In this document: piece after piece, positions 2,878 through 36,339 of the stretch
Layout: each line of letters starts with the position of its first letter
Position numbering within the stretch: the stretch's first letter is position 1
Translations under genes and position numbers: made by a program
The notes under the pieces: generated by a model
The model's database searches: none
What the model saw: only the letters and a program-made list of their open reading frames with translations
What the model was told of the DNA's origin: nothing
Assembly: GCA_031266115.1 (NCBI GenBank)
Contig: JAISBQ010000253.1
Location: forward strand, 1-36,339
DNA from: Bifidobacteriaceae bacterium
GTDB taxonomy: Bacteria > Actinomycetota > Actinomycetes > Actinomycetales > WQXJ01
Direction of reading: 5' to 3'
DNA: 36,339 bases

Positions 2878-2938
2878 GCCGAGTTGAGCCGTCGGGTAGC
2901 AAATCCTCCCTCCCGGGAGCCCAAACACTCAACTCGGC
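2878..2938. repeat. 61-bp palindromic element, GCCGAGTTGAG arm variant
   Basis: Perfect 11-bp inverted ends GCCGAGTTGAG (2878-2888) / CTCAACTCGGC (2928-2938); same length and CAAAC-proximal right end as the elements at 22539 and 22622. Confidence 0.75.
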
Positions 2939-3009
2939 GGTCTGCGGAGCCCCCGGAGACGGCGAGTCCGAGGGTTCGAGTCGTGGATCCGGCGTTGTGA
3001 GGACTCAAT

Positions 3010-3022
3010 GGCTCAACTCGGC
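3010..3022. repeat. Half-copy of the palindromic element arm (GGCTCAACTCGGC)
   Basis: Perfect 13-bp inverted match to GCCGAGTTGAGCC at 2878-2890, located 38 bp before the ATG at 3060. Confidence 0.5.
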
Positions 3023-16707: not shown

Positions 16708-16774
16708 GCGATGTCGGAAGTCGTTGACCCGTGGGCTGGTACGGACGGATGAGGCGTCCGAGGCGGATGTGACG

Positions 16775-16844
16775 CGAGTTTCACCTGTGCGGGCTGAAAC
16801 TGGCCGGTGGTGTCTGGGGTGGCCCTCAAACCTGAAACTGGGCG
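16775..16844. repeat. Palindromic element, longer diverged copy (70 bp)
   Basis: CGAGTTTCACCTGTGCGGGCTGAAACTGGCC...CCCTCAAACCTGAAACTGGGCG, aligning to the element at 22539 at both ends. Confidence 0.65.
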
Positions 16845-16893
16845 ACGAGGACAGGCCAGAGATCGGGTCTCAGGGGGAGGGGTCGTGGGAGCG

Positions 16894-17061
16894 CATCGAG
16901 ATTGCGGAATACCAGGCTCCACAGGGGTGTCACCGGATCGAGATTGTCGAATACCAGGGTCCGATGCCGAAAACCGGGCCCCAGGGGCGGCGGAAGCCTG
17001 GTATCCGACAATGTCGATCTCGCCCGAGGGTTCCGGAACCTGGTATTCGACACTCTCGATG
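16894..17061. repeat. Nested inverted array of four 27-28 bp repeats (consensus ATCGAGATTGTCGAATACCAGGNTCC)
   Basis: R1 16894-16920 CATCGAGATTGCGGAATACCAGGCTCC; R2 16936-16962 GATCGAGATTGTCGAATACCAGGGTCC; R3 16992-17019 GGAAGCCTGGTATCCGACAATGTCGATC (inverted); R4 17035-17061 GGAACCTGGTATTCGACACTCTCGATG (inverted). Confidence 0.85.
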
Positions 17062-17187
17062 CCCACACGATCGCCCAGCAGGGCCACGACCTCCACACAC
17101 CGGGCCATCCCCGCGTGCCCCTCGCGATACCCCCTCCCCGACCCGCCTGCTGCGACCCCTCAGCCCCCGTCTACCGGTCTCCGGATG

Positions 17188-17248
17188 GCCGAGTTTCGCC
17201 TTTCCGGGCCGAAACCGGCCGATCTGGCCCGCAAACCTGAAAAACTTG
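17188..17248. repeat. Palindromic element, copy with degenerate right arm
   Basis: GCCGAGTTTCGCCTTTCCGGGCCGAAACCGGCCGATCTGGCCCGCAAACCTGAAAAACTTG; 61 bp by alignment to 22539-22599. Confidence 0.65.
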
Positions 17249-17316
17249 ATGGTTTGGTGGAGTGCTGGGGGGATGCCCCTTGTTCGCCCGCGGCGCCGTG
17301 GTGTCCTCGGCGCTGG

Positions 17317-21747: not shown

Positions 21748-22146
21748 CTAGGCCCCAGCTCCCAGCACGGGCAGCCCAAGGAGCAGGGCCGCCTCAGCCA
21801 TTCGTTCGTCGAAAGTCACCACAGCTTCGAGATCGTCACCGAGCGTCAGCGCGCTCGCCACATGAATCGCATCCAAGCTCCGCGGTATCGCCGGGTCCAG
21901 GTCTGCTGCCCTGTCGAGGACAGCGAGGTCCACGACAATCAGATCGAGAGATTCAAGAAGCTGTCGCGCGCGAACCTTGGTGGCGAGCGGCTGCGTCCGA
22001 ACCGCTCGCAACAGCTCAGTCCAGGCGATGGCGCTCGATGTGGGGCGCTCGCGCATGTGGGCCCAGATTGCCCGCGCACTGTCGCTTCCAGGTTCCATGA
22101 CGAGAACCTTCACCAACGCGGACGTGTCGACGTAGCACGTCATCAT
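21748..22146 (-). CDS. PIN-domain toxin (VapC-like)
   Basis: MMTCYVDTSALVKVLVMEPGSD...SAIAWTELLRAV...SLDAIHVASALTLGDDLEAVVTFDERM; TAATG overlap with the antitoxin stop. ORF track start 22152. Confidence 0.88.
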   Translation of the reverse strand: MMTCYVDTSALVKVLVMEPGSDSARAIWAHMRERPTSSAIAWTELLRAVRTQPLATKVRARQLLESLDLIVVDLAVLDRAADLDPAIPRSLDAIHVASALTLGDDLEAVVTFDERMAEAALLLGLPVLGAGA

Positions 22147-22421
22147 TACCACCTCTCCGCATCACGCATCTCGGCAAGAACCTCACTGGGAGATGGCTGA
22201 CCCTCGCCAAGTTCCTCTGGCGGACCGAAATCGCGATGGTCGCGCGACGCGGGGCGCAGACGCCCAGCGGCGACCATCCGTTCGCGGCGCGTCGCGGGAA
22301 GGGGGATGATCTGGGCGACTTCAGCGCCCCTGTCTGTGATGATGACTTCTTCGCCCCTTCTCGCCGCTGCTATCGCACCGGCTGGATTCTGACGCAGTTC
22401 ACGGATCCCGACTGACCTCAT
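22146..22421 (-). CDS. Phd/YefM-type antitoxin
   Basis: MRSVGIRELRQNPAGAIAAARRGEEVIITDRGAEVAQIIPL; directly upstream of a PIN toxin. Confidence 0.88.
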   Translation of the reverse strand: MRSVGIRELRQNPAGAIAAARRGEEVIITDRGAEVAQIIPLPATRRERMVAAGRLRPASRDHRDFGPPEELGEGQPSPSEVLAEMRDAERW

Positions 22422-22538: not shown

Positions 22539-22599
22539 GCCGAGTTTCACCTTTCCGGGCTGAATCGGGTGTCTTTGCCCCTCAAACCTGAAACTCGGC
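22539..22599. repeat. 61-bp palindromic element, GCCGAGTTTCA arm variant
   Basis: Perfect 11-bp inverted ends GCCGAGTTTCA (22539-22549) / TGAAACTCGGC (22589-22599). Confidence 0.8.
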
Positions 22600-22621: not shown

Positions 22622-22682
22622 GTCGAGTTTCAGGTTTGGGGGCCAGATTGGCCCGTTTTGGCCCGCGAAGGTGAAACTCGGC
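22622..22682. repeat. 61-bp palindromic element, opposite orientation to 22539
   Basis: GTCGAGTTTCA (22622-22632) / TGAAACTCGGC (22672-22682), one T-G difference; the reverse complement aligns to 22539-22599. Confidence 0.8.
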
Positions 22683-26887: not shown

Positions 26888-29800
26888 CTACCTGACCGTG
26901 ACCCGCGTGGTGGTGGCTCTTGTGCCCGCGGCCTTGACGGTGACGGTGGCCTTACCCTTCGTCAGGGCGACGATCCGGCCTGTCTTGTCGACCCGCAGGA
27001 CTGAGGGATTGCTGGACTTGAAGGTGGGGGTGACGCCAGTGGCGGTTGTCGGCGTCAACCGCACAGCGATGCGGGCGGTCTCGCCTACCGTGAGCTTGCT
27101 CTTGCCTGCCGGGACGGCCGCGTGCAGCGCGATCAGCTTCTTGGCTCGCGGGACCACGGTGACCTTGATCGCCGCGGTCTTGCCGTTGCCGGACCGGACG
27201 GTGATCACGGCCTTGGCGGGACGCGTCACCTTCGCGGCCTTGACAATGCCACTCGCGGACACGGTGGCAACCTTCGGCCTGGAGGACACGAACGTCAGCT
27301 TGGCGTCGGTCGGACTGGCCAAGGCACCTCGACCGACTGCCACCACGGCCGGACGCAGAGTCTTGCCGGATTGGATGTAGACCCTGCTCCCGCTGGTGCG
27401 CAGCGCGCCCACCGCGCGCACAGCCTGGATGGCGACGCGCGCCCGGACGCCGGACCCGTCGGTAGCGATCGCCCGGACCACGACCCGGCCTTCGGCTCCA
27501 GTAAACGTCACGAACCCAGAAGCATCGACGCTGGCCGGTCCGGCGAGGATCGTCCAACTGACGCCGGTCACCGTCGCATTCGCGGGACTGACCTGTGCCG
27601 TCAGGCTCAAGCCGGCGCCGCCGCCGCGGGGAACCTCCCAGACGGTGGGCGCCCCGAGGATGGAGATGGCTGCAACAAGCTGGGAGGGCTGATCCTCCGG
27701 CACCAGGGCGTCCCCGGCGCCTTGCCGGTCCTCGTCGATTCTCCCGGGCAGGTCCGGTTCTGGGCGATTCTGGCGTCCCGGATCCTCATCGCCCGGCCGG
27801 TCCGTATCCTCGTCGCCCGGCCGGTCTGGGTCGTCACCGCCATCGGGTATGGCGATCCACTTGGCGTACACCGTCAACGGTGCGCTCACTCGCGTCTGAG
27901 CGAAGTCGAACAGCGTGGTCAAAGCGCTGTCCGCGAACCAGCCGGCGAACACGAACCCAGCATGGGTGGGATCGGCCGGCCGAGTGACCAAGGCGTTGAG
28001 GCTCGTGGCGACCTGGGTACTGTCACCGTTAGCGCCCAGGTCAAACGTCACCTGGACCGGATCGGCGCCATGCCACAGGGCACACAGGTCTCCGTCTTCA
28101 GTGAACCTCGCGTCGGGGGCGAGTGCTGGCGCACCTTGACCACCCGGGCACAGCGCCCAGCCGTCAAAGATGACCCCGACTCCGACCAGGATCGGCAACT
28201 CCACACGCCCGTTGTAGGCCGCGGTCATCGCTGCGCCAGGTGGCATCCCCGTGACCACCTCGCGGCCACCCGCGTCCAGTCGGAGCTGGACCGGCCCTCG
28301 GTCTTCCCACTGGGCGTACAGCGTCAGGGTTGCCCCAGTCGTCTCGATTCGCGTTGATGCCAGGTCGACGATGGCGCCCCCCGCCACCGCCGGCGACCAG
28401 CCGGCGAACGCGTGGGCGGTCGCGACGGGCTCGGTCACCAGATCGGTGTCGAGATACCCCGATAGCGGCACGGTCTGGGCGGCTGGCAGGCCCTCGGCGT
28501 CGTCGACCTGTCCCGCCGCGAATGCCACCTCGACCACCGTGAGGGCCTCGTCCCACTGCGCGGCGAGGACAACCGGCTCGGTCAGCCGGGTGAGCCCCGG
28601 CACGACCGGCCCGTCCGGGCCGAGCCAACCGGCGAATCGGTGACCCACCACGGTCGGGTCGGGGATGTCGGCGGGAAGGACCGCGTTGTAGGGCAGGGCT
28701 TCGATCGCGTCCGGCCAGGGCGAGCCCGGCGCGAACTCAGCTGGCTCACCGCCCACCGTGCCCGCAGCGAAGGTCACGGTGACCGGGTCGGCCGCTTCCC
28801 AACCGGCGTAGACGGTGGTCGGACCGGTGATCGCTCTGGGCTCCATGTCGCCAGCGAAGGCGAAAGGGATCTCAGCCTCGGCCTCGCGGTACCACCCGGT
28901 GAAGCGCCAGCCTTGGGCCGCGGGAACGGCTTCAGGCATCGCGGCGGGCGTGTCATAGACCACGTGGATGTCGCCTGGCCCTGTCCCTGTCACGGCCGTG
29001 GCGCCATCGGGCACGTTGGTGTCGAACACCACGAGCTGGGCGGGCATGGCCGTCCACCGTCCATAGAGCGTCATGGTGTCCGGCCCATTCGCCCGCAGCG
29101 CGGCCCGATCCTCGATCGGACCGTCCGGTGTCAGGCTCCATCCGTCGAACCGGTATCCAGGTGCACGGGGTTCGGCCGCCGCAGCTGAGTCCAGCGTGTC
29201 GTTGAGCGGGACCGACGCCGGCTCGGGCAGACCACTCGCACCGTCGATCCCAGCGTCGAACTCGACCTGGACGACGGCTGGCGCCGGGTCCCACTGGGCG
29301 GTCGCCGTGGTGTCCTGCCGCAGCCGCGTCACGCCTGGCGTCACGGGCCGCGCGCCGTCGGTCCAGCCGGTGAACCGGTGTCCGATGGCGGCGGGAACCG
29401 CGGTCAGACTCGGCAGCACCGCGTCATAACGGAGCGATGCGACGGCAGCTGGCATTGTGCCCGGCACCACGCGTGCGGCCTCGGCGCCTACCTCACCTGG
29501 TGCGAAAGTGACCGCGATCGCTGGCCGGGTCTCCCACGCGGCAAAGGCCGAGACCGCCGTGGTGTGACGGATCGCCGCCGGCATGCCAAAGAAGGCAAAG
29601 GCGGCTCCACCAGCCGGGGCGGTGTACCAGCCGGTAAACGCATGACCCTCCCATCCGGGCTCTGTTCCCACCGGGGCCGGTACATAGCTGTTGTACGGGA
29701 TGTGGACGATGGCGGGCACGGTGCCGTCGATCGCCTCGCCACCATCGGGGATATTCGCGAGGAAGGAGACGGGGATGCCTGCCATCTTCCGCCATCCGGC

Positions 29801-32800
29801 CTGCAGCGTGATGGGCTCGATGACCGGCGTGGAGTCGAAACTATAGGTCGGGCCGTCCGAAGCCTGGGTGTACCAGCCGGTAAAACGCCATCCTTCGGCG
29901 GCCGGGTCGACCTCGGGCCGCTCGGCGGTGCGGCCCCGCGGCACGATCTGCGCGGCCGGGTCGGCGCCCTGGAACACCGCATCCGGCCCGGTCAGACCCT
30001 CCGGGTCGAGCCTCAGGTCGAACGCGACCTGGCTGGTGGGCGCGTCACCCCACGCGGCATGGAGCGTGATGTTCTCATCGGAGCGCACCGGAGCGAGGAA
30101 ATCGAAGGGGTCGGCGTCCGGTCCTGGCGCTGGCGAGGTGTACCACCCCAAGAACTCCTTGAAGCCCGAAGACTCCACCGGTGTTGTCTGTGGTGGTAGA
30201 ACAGTTGTACCATAGATCACATGCGAATAGTCATGCGGCATCGTGCCATGAATGGTCGTATATCCGTTGGCATCAAAGTTGATGGTCACGGCCGGCTTGA
30301 CCGTCCACTGGGCGTAGACGGTGGCGCTGGCCACGACCGGCGCCGCGAAATCGACGGGGATCGCCGCGTCGGGAGAAGAACTCCATCCGGCAAACAGAGC
30401 GCCGGTCGCCTCGGGCGGTGGTGGCGCGGTCGTGGTCTCGCCTTCCAAGATGGTCTCGGCCACGGGGAAGGTGTCGCCTTGAACGGCCACCCCGAGGGGC
30501 GCGTTCGGGAGATACGTGAAGGTGAAGCGCTGCAACTCCGCCCAGTTCGCATACAGGGTCAACTCGCCGGCGCCCACCCGTGCCACGTCGAACTGGAACG
30601 GCTCGGTCCCGGCCGTGTCGGTGGACCAATACGTGAACCGGTAGCCCGCCAGCGTCGGGAGCTGGGCCGGGAGGGGCACCAGATCATGGATTTTCGCGTC
30701 GACGATGTCGGCGGGCAGGTTCGCGGCCGGCGTCACCACTGGCTCGTTGCCGACGAACCTCACGCGAACAGGGTCCAGCGCCCGCCACCGTGCGTGCAGC
30801 GTCACGGTCCCGGCCCCGGTGACACGCCATGTCGCGAAGTCGACGGGCGGGACGTCATCGTCGGAGCGGGCGTACCAGCCCAGGAACTCGAACCCGGCCG
30901 CACCCGGCGAACCGGGATCCGCCAGCCGTGCCGCATAGGCGACACCGCTGATGGGTCTCAGTGCGTCCGTATAGGGGGACACCGCACCCACGTCGAACGC
31001 CACCGTGACCGGAGCCATGGCCGTCCACGCACCGAAGGCGAACGTGTCCGCCGTGACCCGGTCATTGTCGAAGTCGAACGGCGTGGTCAGCTCGCTGGTG
31101 GTGTACCAGCCGTCGAACCGATATCCGGGCACTACCGGATCGGCCGGACGCGGCACCAGGTCGTGGTAGCGGACCGTGGCCGGTTCGGGGACGGTGCCAG
31201 GTTCCAGCGTCGTTCCGGCCGGCTTCTTGGCGTTGAAGCCGACTTGGAGATCATCCATGGGCTCCCATTGGGCATACACCACCTGAGGATCGACCGTCAG
31301 GCGGCTCACCCCGGGGGTGACCAGCGCGCCGCCTTGCCGGGCCGTGAACCAGCCCAGCCACCGGTAGCCGGGAGCGACCGGCACAGCCAGACCGGTCGGC
31401 AGGAGCGACGCGTAAGGCGCGGTCAGGCCCGGTGGGATGGTCCCAGCCACGGCGTTGGTGTCGGTCGGGGTGTTGGCGTCGAACGCGACCGAGACCTCCG
31501 CCATCGGCGTCCAGGTCGCCACGAGGGTGACATCCTCGGTCAGCCGGGTGGCGGCGAAGTCGAAGGGTTCGCCGTCCACCTTCCACCCGGCGAAGGCGAA
31601 GCCCAAGGCGACCGGCACCTGGGTGGGTTCGGCGACGTGGGCGTTGAAGTCGATGGCCACTGAGGGCGGCGGCATTGTCCCGGTGACCGTTGGGGCGACG
31701 CCTGGCGCGAACGTGACCGTCACGGGCTCGTGAGCCTGCCAGGCTGCGTACAGGGTCTGGTCCGCGCTCACCCGGGTGACCCCGGGAAGGAAGCGCTCGC
31801 CCTCGCCGCCGGGGGCCGTGAACCAGCCAGCGAAGGCCTGACCGGGCACAATCGGTTGGCGCAGCGACACGGGCAGCACCTCGTTGTAGGCGAGAGCCGC
31901 GATCGCCTCGGGCATAGTGCCATCCACCGCTCCCCCGGCAATCCCTGCCGAGAACTGCACCGCGAGGGGGCCGCGGGCCTGCCACTGGGCGTACAGGGTG
32001 GTCGCCTCACGCAGTCGGGTGATGCCGGGCTCCACCGCGTCCCCACCCGCCGATGCCGTGAACCAGCCGGTGAAGACGTAACCGACCGCGAGGGGAACCG
32101 ACAGGTCGGTGGGCATGAGTTGGTCGTAGTCGACCGTCAGCGGGCCCGTGGGGCAGGTCCCGGGAACCACCTGTCTCGACCCCGTCGCCTGGCACTCGAA
32201 ACCGATCTCGAAGTTGGGCTTGGCGTCCCACCGTGCGTAGAGAGTGAGGACTGTCTCATCCGCATCGGTGGACACACGGGTGGTTCCCGGGATGTACTGC
32301 TCGCCGCCATCCGCGGCCGAGTACCAGCCGGTGAACTGGTATCCGACCAGCACCGGGACTGGTAGGTCCCCGGGCAGCAGCGCGTTCAGGGCGAGGGGCA
32401 TGTCGGTGGGCACGGTGCCGGCCACCGGCGTTCCCTCCGGAGTGTTGGCATCGAACCGGACACTGACCGGGGCCGCGCCAGTCCAGGTCGGGACCAGGGT
32501 GATGTCGGTCCACACCCTGGTGACGCCGGGGGTGAAGGCCACCTCGGCATCGGCCTGGCGCCACCCGGCGAACCGGTGGCCGATGGCGGCCGGAGAGGCG
32601 AAGTTCGCCGGCAACGGCGCGGAATAGGCGAGTGCCGGGATGGCGGGCGGCATGGACCCCGGAACCAGCGGGGATTCGTCATCGGGCGCCACGGGTGAGA
32701 ACGAGACCGCGACCGTCCGCGAGGCCGGCTCCCATTGGGCGTGGAGGGTCAGGTTCCCGGTCACGTGAGTGGTTCCTGGCGTGTACCGGTTGCCGCCGGT

Positions 32801-35800
32801 GGGCGCGTCAAACCAGCCGGAGAACCGGTATCCCCCCGAGCCGTCCGCGGCGATGGCGACGGGGTCGCTGACACCGATCGCCGGCAGGACGGCGTCGTAG
32901 GCCAGATCGACGATTCTGGCGGGCATCTCGAAGGCTTCGGCACCCGGCGGGACGTTGGCGTCGAACTCCACGGTGGAGGGAGCGACGGCCTCCCACCCGG
33001 CGTAGACGTGGATGTCCGCACCCGGGTCGGGGATCCTCACGGTTCCTAGGGCTATCTGGTCTTCGCATGCGGTCTGGGAGGAGCAGGTGGTGTACCAACC
33101 GGTGAAGGCGAAGCCCTCGCGGGCTATCTGGGTCTCCGCCGCCGCCGTCAGGTCGGAGACCCGAAGGTCCTGGTTGTTGGCCGGCACCGAGCGGAGGGTA
33201 GGGTCGTCGGCCGCGTTGGCGTGGTAGACCACCCGATAGCGTTCGGGATCGGCCTGCCATTGGGCGTGGAGGGTCGTGGCAGCGGTCAGGCGGAAGGCGT
33301 CTGGACCTGAGAAGGACACGAGCTCGCCGAGGCCCGCCGAGTCGAAGTACCAGCCGATGAACCCGTAGCCGGGCCGGACAATCTGGCTGTCCGGGGGAAC
33401 CAGGGCCGCTGCGTAGGCCAGGCCCTGGTTGTTGGCCGGGACGCCCGCGGCACGGGCCTCGTCATCGTCGTTTGGGTCCCAGGTGACCGAGTACGTGGCC
33501 ACGATCCGCTCCCACTGGGCGTACAGGGTCACGACCACTATGTCGGCGTCGGTAGATACGCGTGTGGTTCCCGGGATGTACTCAGTGCCGCCTTCGGGGG
33601 CGGAATACCATCCGGTGAACCGATAGCCCACGAGGATCGGGGACTGGATTCCTGCCGGCAGTAGAGCGTTCAGTACCTGGGTGGTGGGGGTGTCGGGCAT
33701 GGTGCCGGGAACCACCTGAGTTCCCAGTCCCGACGGCTCGTTCGCGTCGAACTGGACTTGGACAAGGGCCGCCTCGGTCCACACGGGCTTCAGGACGATG
33801 TCGGCGTTGATGCGGGTCACACCAGGGATCACAGCGGTGTCCGGGTCCGCGGCGTCACACCAGCCCGCGAACCGGTGACCCTCCGCGACCGGGCTCGCCA
33901 GGTCCGCGGGGAGGACCGCGGAATACGCCAACGCCGGGATCGGTTCCGGCATGGTGTCTGGCACCAGCGGAGAGCTTGGACCTGGGGTCGGGTCTTCGAC
34001 AAAGGTCACCGCGACCGTCAGGGATTCCGCGCTCCACCGGGCATGCAGGGTGGTGTTCTGGGTGACGCGGGTAGTCCCGGGCGCATATTCCACGCCGGCG
34101 GTCGGGTCGGTGTACCAGCCGCCGAACTCATATCCGCCGCTCGCATCGGTAGCCAACGCGACGGGGGTGAGGGTCTCGGGCATGGTCGCGTCGTAGGCGA
34201 GACCGGCGATGGTTTGCGGCATGCCGGTCACCTCGGAATTGGCCGGGGTGTTCGGGGCGAACTCGATCTGGACCGGGTTCTCGACCACCCATTTCGCATA
34301 CACGTCGATGTCCGCGCCTGGATCGGGAATCCTCACGGTTCCTAGAGCCACCGGATCCGCACATTCGGTCTGCGACGTACAGGTTGCGTACCAGCCGTCA
34401 AACCGATATCCCTCGCGTGCGATCAAGGAGTCTGGTGCAGCGGTCAGCTCCGACACTTTCACGTCCTGGTTGTTGATCGGGGTATCCCTGACAGTGGAAT
34501 CCTCCCCAGCGTTCGCGTGATAGACCACCTCGTAAGAGCGCGCGTTCTCGGTCCACTTCGCATGCAAGGTCACGTTCTGGCCGGGAGAGGGAACCCGGTC
34601 TGTCGGGTCGAATTCTCCGGCGCACACGGTCTGTGACTCACACTCATACCACCAGCCGCGAAATTCGTATCCCACTCGCCCAATCGTTGACGATGCCGCG
34701 CCAATAGTGTCGGAGACACGCAAATCCTTGGTGATGGGGACGCCGAACACGTTCTCATCGTCCCCCGCGTTCGGATCAAACGTGACCGTGTAATTCGACC
34801 CGTCGAGTATCCAGCGCGCATGCACGGTGACATCCTGGCCAGGATCGGGAACCCGGTCGGTCGCATGGAACTCGCCTGTGCACTGGGACTCCGATCCGCA
34901 TGAATACCACCAGCCATCAAACACGAAGCCGGGACGCACCGGGGTCGAGTCTGGCTCCCCTATCGGCTCGGAGACCGCCAACGTCTTGCTTTCCGGCACT
35001 CCCACCACGTCCGGATCGCCCCCAGCATTGGGGTCAAAGGTCACGGTGTAAGGCGTCGAATCCTGAGTCCATGCCGCATGGAGAGTCGTGTTCCCTGATA
35101 TCCGGGTCTGGTCGGAGCCCGCGAACACCACACGGGTCCCAGTCCCGCCCTCGCCGGTCCACCAGCCGGTGAACTGGTAGCCCTGGCGGAGGATCTGGGT
35201 GTCCGGGGATGCTAGCGGGGCCGCATAGTACAGGTCCTGGTTGTTGGTCGGGATATTCACGGCCCGGGATGCGCTGTCGTCGTTGGGGTTCCAGGTGATC
35301 GAATAGGTGGTCGTGTCCACGGTCCAGTGCGCATAGACCGGGGAGGCGATAATGCGGGTTCCGGAAGGTCCGAACGTGACCTGGTTTCCACCATCAGTGG
35401 CCGTGTACCAGCCGGTGAACCGGTAGCCGGTCCCGGTGTAGGCGTCCACGAGCGGGTCTGGGGTGGGTGGGGTGAGGACCTGGGCGTTGTAGGGCAGATC
35501 ATCGATCTGGTCCGGGACCGTACCGTTGACCACCGTCCCATCACCGGCGGGTGGGTTCGGATCGAAAACCAGATCGATGGCAGGCATGGGGGTCCAGGTG
35601 GCGACCAGAGCGATAGTCCTGGCGTCCGTGGTCGTGAACTTGTCCATGGTCAACCGGTCCACCAGCGGATCGAACCGTGCACCATTGATGGTCTGATCCT
35701 GGGAGTTGATAGTCCATCCGTCAAACCGGTAGCCCTCCACGATCGGGCTGGTCGGGGTGATCCGGGTGTTATAGATCTGGTTGGTCAACGTCCCGGGCAC

Positions 35801-36339
35801 GGTGCCGGCCACCGCGGTAGCGTCCGGCGGAACGTTCGGATCGAAGGTGACAGTGACCTGGCCCTGTAGCTGCCAGGTCGCATACCACTGTTGGATGGGT
35901 GGGCCAGCGTCCTCGGTGTCCCATGTCAGTCTGGTCACCCCCGGCACGGCCGTGTCGCCGGGGGAGTCCAGAGAAGCCACCCAGCCGGTGAAATGATAGG
36001 ACTCGATCACTGGGGAGGACAGGTCGGCACGGATCGTGCTGTTGTAGGGGATTCCGTGTTGGGTATCCGGCATCGTCCCGGCTACGACCGCCGTACTGGT
36101 TGGTGCGTTCTGATCGAAAGTGACGGTCAACGTGTCGGGGACGAGTATCCATGTGGCATACAGGGTGGTTTGGCCGGTCAATCGGGTGCCATCGACCCCC
36201 AGCGCAATCGGGTTCCCACCCGATTCGGCGTCATACCAGCCGGTGAACCGGTATCCCTCCACGACCGGCACACCGAGACTGTCCGGGACCGTGCCGTTGT
36301 AGGCGAACGCGTCCCACCCTTGGGGGCATGTCCCGGGGA
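26888..36339 (-). CDS. Giant InlB B-repeat (Flg_new / Listeria-Bacteroides repeat-like) surface protein with C-terminal Big2-like Ig domains; partial, 5' end outside the window
   Basis: 34 repeats of the form VxVTFDxNxP...GTxP...PxVxGYRFTGWYxxxxGG...TRxTxxTTLYAxW; Asp/Pro linker DGGDDPDRPGDEDTDRPGDEDPGRQ; Big2-like ends (VSPANATVTGVSWTI...; KLTFVSSRPKVATVSASGIVKA; PTFKSSNPSVLRVDKTGRIVALTKGKATVTVKA). The frame stays open from 36271 to the window end (PGTCPQGWDAFAYNGTVPDSLG). Confidence 0.9.
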   Translation of the reverse strand, partial: PGTCPQGWDAFAYNGTVPDSLGVPVVEGYRFTGWYDAESGGNPIALGVDGTRLTGQTTLYATWILVPDTLTVTFDQNAPTSTAVVAGTMPDTQHGIPYNSTIRADLSSPVIESYHFTGWVASLDSPGDTAVPGVTRLTWDTEDAGPPIQQWYATWQLQGQVTVTFDPNVPPDATAVAGTVPGTLTNQIYNTRITPTSPIVEGYRFDGWTINSQDQTINGARFDPLVDRLTMDKFTTTDARTIALVATWTPMPAIDLVFDPNPPAGDGTVVNGTVPDQIDDLPYNAQVLTPPTPDPLVDAYTGTGYRFTGWYTATDGGNQVTFGPSGTRIIASPVYAHWTVDTTTYSITWNPNDDSASRAVNIPTNNQDLYYAAPLASPDTQILRQGYQFTGWWTGEGGTGTRVVFAGSDQTRISGNTTLHAAWTQDSTPYTVTFDPNAGGDPDVVGVPESKTLAVSEPIGEPDSTPVRPGFVFDGWWYSCGSESQCTGEFHATDRVPDPGQDVTVHARWILDGSNYTVTFDPNAGDDENVFGVPITKDLRVSDTIGAASSTIGRVGYEFRGWWYECESQTVCAGEFDPTDRVPSPGQNVTLHAKWTENARSYEVVYHANAGEDSTVRDTPINNQDVKVSELTAAPDSLIAREGYRFDGWYATCTSQTECADPVALGTVRIPDPGADIDVYAKWVVENPVQIEFAPNTPANSEVTGMPQTIAGLAYDATMPETLTPVALATDASGGYEFGGWYTDPTAGVEYAPGTTRVTQNTTLHARWSAESLTVAVTFVEDPTPGPSSPLVPDTMPEPIPALAYSAVLPADLASPVAEGHRFAGWCDAADPDTAVIPGVTRINADIVLKPVWTEAALVQVQFDANEPSGLGTQVVPGTMPDTPTTQVLNALLPAGIQSPILVGYRFTGWYSAPEGGTEYIPGTTRVSTDADIVVVTLYAQWERIVATYSVTWDPNDDDEARAAGVPANNQGLAYAAALVPPDSQIVRPGYGFIGWYFDSAGLGELVSFSGPDAFRLTAATTLHAQWQADPERYRVVYHANAADDPTLRSVPANNQDLRVSDLTAAAETQIAREGFAFTGWYTTCSSQTACEDQIALGTVRIPDPGADIHVYAGWEAVAPSTVEFDANVPPGAEAFEMPARIVDLAYDAVLPAIGVSDPVAIAADGSGGYRFSGWFDAPTGGNRYTPGTTHVTGNLTLHAQWEPASRTVAVSFSPVAPDDESPLVPGSMPPAIPALAYSAPLPANFASPAAIGHRFAGWRQADAEVAFTPGVTRVWTDITLVPTWTGAAPVSVRFDANTPEGTPVAGTVPTDMPLALNALLPGDLPVPVLVGYQFTGWYSAADGGEQYIPGTTRVSTDADETVLTLYARWDAKPNFEIGFECQATGSRQVVPGTCPTGPLTVDYDQLMPTDLSVPLAVGYVFTGWFTASAGGDAVEPGITRLREATTLYAQWQARGPLAVQFSAGIAGGAVDGTMPEAIAALAYNEVLPVSLRQPIVPGQAFAGWFTAPGGEGERFLPGVTRVSADQTLYAAWQAHEPVTVTFAPGVAPTVTGTMPPPSVAIDFNAHVAEPTQVPVALGFAFAGWKVDGEPFDFAATRLTEDVTLVATWTPMAEVSVAFDANTPTDTNAVAGTIPPGLTAPYASLLPTGLAVPVAPGYRWLGWFTARQGGALVTPGVSRLTVDPQVVYAQWEPMDDLQVGFNAKKPAGTTLEPGTVPEPATVRYHDLVPRPADPVVPGYRFDGWYTTSELTTPFDFDNDRVTADTFAFGAWTAMAPVTVAFDVGAVSPYTDALRPISGVAYAARLADPGSPGAAGFEFLGWYARSDDDVPPVDFATWRVTGAGTVTLHARWRALDPVRVRFVGNEPVVTPAANLPADIVDAKIHDLVPLPAQLPTLAGYRFTYWSTDTAGTEPFQFDVARVGAGELTLYANWAELQRFTFTYLPNAPLGVAVQGDTFPVAETILEGETTTAPPPPEATGALFAGWSSSPDAAIPVDFAAPVVASATVYAQWTVKPAVTINFDANGYTTIHGTMPHDYSHVIYGTTVLPPQTTPVESSGFKEFLGWYTSPAPGPDADPFDFLAPVRSDENITLHAAWGDAPTSQVAFDLRLDPEGLTGPDAVFQGADPAAQIVPRGRTAERPEVDPAAEGWRFTGWYTQASDGPTYSFDSTPVIEPITLQAGWRKMAGIPVSFLANIPDGGEAIDGTVPAIVHIPYNSYVPAPVGTEPGWEGHAFTGWYTAPAGGAAFAFFGMPAAIRHTTAVSAFAAWETRPAIAVTFAPGEVGAEAARVVPGTMPAAVASLRYDAVLPSLTAVPAAIGHRFTGWTDGARPVTPGVTRLRQDTTATAQWDPAPAVVQVEFDAGIDGASGLPEPASVPLNDTLDSAAAAEPRAPGYRFDGWSLTPDGPIEDRAALRANGPDTMTLYGRWTAMPAQLVVFDTNVPDGATAVTGTGPGDIHVVYDTPAAMPEAVPAAQGWRFTGWYREAEAEIPFAFAGDMEPRAITGPTTVYAGWEAADPVTVTFAAGTVGGEPAEFAPGSPWPDAIEALPYNAVLPADIPDPTVVGHRFAGWLGPDGPVVPGLTRLTEPVVLAAQWDEALTVVEVAFAAGQVDDAEGLPAAQTVPLSGYLDTDLVTEPVATAHAFAGWSPAVAGGAIVDLASTRIETTGATLTLYAQWEDRGPVQLRLDAGGREVVTGMPPGAAMTAAYNGRVELPILVGVGVIFDGWALCPGGQGAPALAPDARFTEDGDLCALWHGADPVQVTFDLGANGDSTQVATSLNALVTRPADPTHAGFVFAGWFADSALTTLFDFAQTRVSAPLTVYAKWIAIPDGGDDPDRPGDEDTDRPGDEDPGRQNRPEPDLPGRIDEDRQGAGDALVPEDQPSQLVAAISILGAPTVWEVPRGGGAGLSLTAQVSPANATVTGVSWTILAGPASVDASGFVTFTGAEGRVVVRAIATDGSGVRARVAIQAVRAVGALRTSGSRVYIQSGKTLRPAVVAVGRGALASPTDAKLTFVSSRPKVATVSASGIVKAAKVTRPAKAVITVRSGNGKTAAIKVTVVPRAKKLIALHAAVPAGKSKLTVGETARIAVRLTPTTATGVTPTFKSSNPSVLRVDKTGRIVALTKGKATVTVKAAGTRATTTRVTVR

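Follow-up and report, generated by a model that had tools for sequence, protein, structure and literature searches.

Dispersed 61-bp palindromes in a Bifidobacteriaceae genome as the candidate solo form of a palindrome-bounded AbiEi-DUF559 unit

Why should two palindromes of equal length in one contig differ in both of their arms at once? The question was raised by a first-pass annotation of a 36,339-nucleotide stretch of DNA (the window), which is contig C339 of G000, the genome of an uncultured Bifidobacteriaceae bacterium (assembly of 2.99 Mb in 408 contigs, 90% complete). The arms of the two 61-bp copies that it compared, at 2878 and 22539, are present as it gave them (Table 1), and so is the T.G pair that it reported in the copy at 22622. 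Altogether, the window contains six copies of this family, family 1. The copy at 2878 forms a doublet with a decayed second unit, the two starts being 83 bp apart, and a family 2 element sits between two other family 1 copies. Some family 1 copies have toxin-antitoxin genes beside or between them: PIN and Phd/YefM in the window (21751-22421, reverse strand), and PIN/antitoxin-like ORFs, recognized by eye, at L052 3457-4093 and L102 5992-6694. The window also encodes a 3127-aa protein (26891-36271, reverse strand), in which 19 stretches match the Listeria-Bacteroides repeat (PF09479) and a Big_2 domain is present.

Table 1. Palindromic elements of the window, palindromes at the full-length AbiEi-DUF559 genes of G000, and mixed-family clusters.
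Location	Feature	Details
Window 2878-2938	Family 1 palindrome, TTGAG subtype, 61 bp; feature under study	Arms GCCGAGTTGAG/CTCAACTCGGC
Window 2961-3022	Decayed second family 1 unit	Covariance model 30.9 bits, E 1.7e-5
Window 16774-16843	Family 1 copy, 70 bp, internal insertion	Covariance model 29.5 bits, E 4.6e-5
Window 16895-17060	Family 2 element, 166 bp, four arms (two direct, two inverted)	ATCGAGATTGnnGAATACCAGG
Window 17188-17250	Family 1 copy, 63 bp	Covariance model 37.5 bits
Window 22539-22599	Family 1 palindrome, TTTCA subtype, doublet unit 1	Arms GCCGAGTTTCA/TGAAACTCGGC
Window 22622-22682	Family 1 palindrome, TTTCA subtype, doublet unit 2	Start 83 bp after unit 1
C1 gene	Family 1 doublet, TTGCC subtype	37 nt past stop codon
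C18 gene	Family 2, upstream	Same family as window 16895-17060
C93 gene	Family 3, after gene	
C405 gene	Family 4, palindromic arms at end	
C365 gene	Fifth family, palindromic arms at end	
L073 6099-7161	Mixed-family cluster	
L091 4270-5018	Mixed-family cluster	
L083 14350-15157	Mixed-family cluster	
Window 16774-17250	Mixed-family cluster	

The family 1 palindrome is not a chance feature, because the pattern GCCGAGTTN{34,60}AACTCGGC occurred at 15 sites in G000 and a reversed control pattern at none. The covariance-model search proposed by the annotation was run on the G000 contigs using a model built from 16 copies. Family 1 was found at no fewer than about 75 places genome-wide, and the copy-bearing contigs (0.66 Mb) held at least 103 distinct copies, 75 of them exactly 61 bp long; another 267 kb of contigs added only approximately four, all weak. 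The spacing was exactly 83 bp in 24 of 27 adjacent pairs. Most copies were intergenic (79 of 103), although approximately 80% of the sequence is predicted to be coding, and they occupied divergent (20), tandem (24) and convergent (16) gene settings. Predicted folds were strong (z of -4.5 to -12). A role as terminators was rejected, as the copies showed no bias towards convergent gene ends, and the 22-bp spacers, at first believed to be palindromic, paired at 3.77 of 11 positions versus 3.15 for random sequence. Viral origin was rejected as well, viral contigs having no exact match to the pattern. In named genomes, the exact-pattern scan returned the Mycobacterium elements described below and three matches judged by eye to be simple repeats. 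The 14-mer GACGATGCCGGCCC has 20 scattered occurrences in the 0.66 Mb of contigs.

In the alignment of 16 copies, the arms appeared to covary: changes were two-sided at 12 of 25 pairs, with a score of 0.205 versus at most 0.080 when slid. Using the 75 unique 61-bp copies, this signal resolved into differences between three subfamilies, TTTCA (about 60 copies), TTGCC/TTGCG (6) and TTGAG (5), with none inside a subfamily. The annotation had named a lack of genome-wide covariation as what would count against its reading; two-sided change was found between the three subfamilies but not within TTTCA, the main one, where the arms vary independently. As paired change is limited to differences among three subfamilies, it amounts to approximately two or three events. 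Among the 60 unique TTTCA copies, the inner arm (positions 12-25) was paired at 9.20 of 14 positions versus 9.38 ± 0.20 for shuffled halves (p = 0.82). Positions 2, 12, 13, 17, 18 and 23 were paired in just 42-48%, and positions 8-11 and 19-20 were invariant in both arms. In the TTGCC/TTGCG subtype, a C:C mismatch is fixed at position 11. Thus, selection for arm pairing was not seen within the main subfamily. Judged from the alignment, each family 1 arm is an inverted copy of a single half-site, roughly GNCGAGTTTCAnnTTynnGGGC, and half-sites that change together fit the symmetric binding site of a putative dimeric DNA-binding protein. Recombination at the palindrome centre between copies may also scramble the halves; pairing is unmaintained either way.

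A candidate for such a protein is the product of the AbiEi-DUF559 genes. Searching G000 with A3, a profile of AbiEi-DUF559 proteins, gave eight loci, five of them full-length. Every full-length gene has palindromic arms at an end, and no two of the five share a palindrome family (Table 1). Family 1 itself, in its TTGCC subtype, is found at the end of the C1 gene; given the abundance of the family, a single gene neighbour has a chance P of approximately 0.05. No gene was found in G000 beside the TTTCA majority or beside the TTGAG subtype, to which the palindrome at 2878 belongs. By itself the C1 protein matches no Pfam family, but it aligns to A3 with 99.8% probability and keeps an EYDG motif. 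In three related AbiEi-DUF559 proteins (C18, C405 and G002 C375; L123, L124 and L140), the ExDG motif has M where E is otherwise conserved, and such members may be nuclease-dead yet keep their palindromes. As for the other families in G000, family 2 (166 bp, four arms) forms 15 clusters in 0.93 Mb with arms mostly at 0/42/123/165, family 3 consists of 51-bp palindromes paired at 136 bp, and family 4 has four arms. Non-coding-looking clusters of 0.4-1.1 kb mix families 1 and 2 or 1 and 3, with family 1 outermost. In G002, a genome of the same genus, loci L111 and L113 carry sister palindromes in arrays of four or five, which have a period of approximately 83 bp and arms similar to GCCGAGTTGGGGG.

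The N-terminal part of these proteins matches models (PF13338, PADLOC AbiEi) of AbiEi, the antitoxin of the AbiE type IV toxin-antitoxin system; here, unlike in that antitoxin, it is fused to a DUF559 nuclease domain. Using the A3 profile, the C-terminal nuclease domain resembles 3hrl (1.8e-10) and, more weakly, 3r3p (E 1e-4, profile positions 236-294). We take 3r3p to be I-Bth0305I. According to a review (PMC3943268), this EDxHD homing endonuclease forms a dimer on a target nearly 60 bp long, close to the palindrome length here, a likeness that supports the idea of a dimer by analogy and not as proof. Unlike the EDxHD homing endonucleases, the present gene is not intron-encoded and has an AbiEi-like N-terminus, and its symmetric putative target flanks the gene and has many solo sites in the genome. 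For the L119 protein, AlphaFold gave a poor model (pLDDT 44), which was set aside. AbiEi-DUF559 is a multicopy gene family of Actinomycetota, detected in 61 of 199 genomes of the phylum (E 1e-20 or better).

The association was evaluated at 31 PF04480 loci of G000 and its relatives, counting palindromes with a score of at least 15 and a span of at least 42 bp. There were 20 in the 92 kb around DUF559 genes versus 14 in 400 kb of control sequence, taken as arbitrary regions of the same genomes, in which palindrome density was 6-fold lower (Poisson P ~3e-10). At this strict threshold, 14 of the 31 loci had a palindrome (P 4e-7), including L150, where it lies far from the gene, and L147, where it lies beside an uncertain reading frame. 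The other 17 had none, a number that fell to approximately 11 at a looser threshold; six further loci had split or weaker palindromes. Genes were flanked on both sides at L132, L134, L138, L141 and L145 and in two public Mycobacterium genomes, where 57-61-bp relatives of the palindrome surround one gene; in the relative G003, palindromes likewise lie on both sides of a PF13338 + PF04480 gene. The two palindromes of a flanking pair match each other and differ from gene to gene.

In a later check, six loci were taken unseen from public records. Palindromes were present at four, including two Tsukamurella CDSs bracketed by cognate palindromes, in both of which the stop codon is no more than a few bases from the downstream palindrome. 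The genes of Tsukamurella WP_170181047.1 and of Mycobacterium BK086 each stand between identical palindromes. Each Tsukamurella palindrome recurs elsewhere in its own strain in solo form, at 20 places in 8 records and at 11 places in 9 records, and neither matched any other organism of the searched collection. Similarly, G025 contains 8 dispersed copies of its own palindrome family, of which three other genomes contain none. Across G000, its relatives and the six public loci, these sequence comparisons argue with high confidence for a strong association of palindromes with AbiEi-DUF559 genes.

We next consider the locus of G025, which was followed across 200 genomes of its family. The neighbouring genes are constant, and in nine genomes two palindromes bracket the gene. 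The gene is inverted in two (G175 and G183), three have a solo palindrome (G148, G187 and G170), and other genomes have neither gene nor palindrome. Within any one genome, the palindromes on the two sides of the gene match, and their sequence varies from species to species. As a species-level comparison, the polymorphism carries no direction or timing of change.

We consider it probable that the full form of a small mobile unit is palindrome, AbiEi-DUF559 gene and palindrome, and that the 61-bp palindrome represents this unit in its solo form, lacking the gene. To judge from the sequences, the AbiEi-DUF559 protein is likely what moves the palindromes. The protein would bind the palindrome as a dimer and recognise the arms through its AbiEi-like N-terminal part, and the C-terminal Vsr/EDxHD-like nuclease domain would cut at or near its own site. 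Repair off another copy would then spread the palindrome, with or without the gene. The palindrome is symmetric, so two of them are direct and inverted repeats at once; recombination between them could therefore either remove the gene, with a solo palindrome left behind, or flip its orientation. The states of the polymorphic locus would be explained in this way. The arm differences between the copies at 2878 and 22539 would represent a switch in half-site specificity between subfamilies and not the upkeep of a hairpin.

It is unlikely, if conceivable, that the palindromes are instead fixed chromosomal sites, serving as operators or nucleoid sites of AbiEi-DUF559 regulators or DNA organisers, with the gene-flanking copies used for autoregulation. 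In favour of this reading are the conserved half-sites with independent arms, the four-arm arrays of constant geometry, the intergenic positions, the AbiEi-like N-terminus and the ExDG glutamate missing from some members. However, the palindromes often sit at the gene's 3' end or flank it on both sides, and divergent, tandem and convergent settings are all occupied. Moreover, related species differ at one locus in having the gene, having it inverted or lacking it, and palindrome sequences are limited to species and strain.

Hairpins of DNA or RNA under base-pairing selection, whether as a structured RNA, a terminator or an mRNA-stability REP, are very improbable. The lack of excess pairing in the main subfamily, the fixed C:C mismatch and the lack of preference for convergent gene ends weigh against them, despite the strength of the predicted folds and the two-sided changes between subfamilies. 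Thus, the annotation's description of one dispersed family of REP/MITE-like elements holds, but not the hairpin selection that it placed behind them. A known RNA was rejected, as the window has no Rfam match, and the suggested structured RNA is not supported, as there are no covarying pairs within the main subfamily. Least probable is that the palindromes are MITEs or the terminal repeats of an ordinary insertion sequence that carries the DUF559 gene as a passenger, since each palindrome family pairs with a different AbiEi-DUF559 gene across many genera and no transposase was found with the palindromes in a search for the Y1 type, although the inverted-repeat elements are dispersed and their movement by DUF559 is putative. 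Like MITEs, the elements are short, non-coding, multicopy and intergenic, with inverted repeats; unlike them, they are almost wholly palindromic. No constant target-site duplication was noticed in the flank list of 103 copies, and a cognate IS was not found, the transposase search being for Y1.

The closest parallel in working is REP/REPIN with RAYT (PMC3116915, PMC3733652). In both systems, many intergenic palindromes are dispersed with doublets at fixed spacing, and a genome contains several families, each tied to a nuclease-type gene flanked by its own palindromes. Against the REP size and copy criteria, family 1 is 61 bp long, of high copy number and intergenic in 79 of 103 cases; the palindromes here are approximately 45-75 bp long versus 20-40 bp in REP. 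No GTAG or CGTC tetranucleotide tag was constant by eye in the aligned flanks of the 103 copies. The partner is AbiEi-DUF559, of the Vsr/PD-(D/E)XK kind, and not a Y1 tyrosine transposase: PF01797 (IS200-like) had no match in G000, which is 90% complete, and did match control genomes. An element driven by RAYT was rejected on this ground. Family 1 resembles REP/RAYT in working but fails its defining test, the Y1 transposase.

In the literature searched, which excluded subscription literature and preprints, no paper was found linking DUF559 with palindromes, and the palindrome-AbiEi-DUF559 unit is apparently an undescribed kind of small mobile DNA. We give even chances to the broader proposal that AbiEi-DUF559 proteins are the enzymes behind an undescribed class of mobile elements, bounded by palindromes and seeding genomes with solo palindromes of family-specific sequence, an analogue of REP/RAYT with an unrelated enzyme of homing-endonuclease type and symmetric, reversible insertion. 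The proposal offers a testable role for a widespread orphan gene family and would account for a class of dispersed actinobacterial palindromes. If it is true, the pairing of dispersed palindromes with a nuclease of their own has arisen for two types of enzyme that are unrelated, and every Tsukamurella or Mycobacterium gene would bring with it a ready candidate target site.
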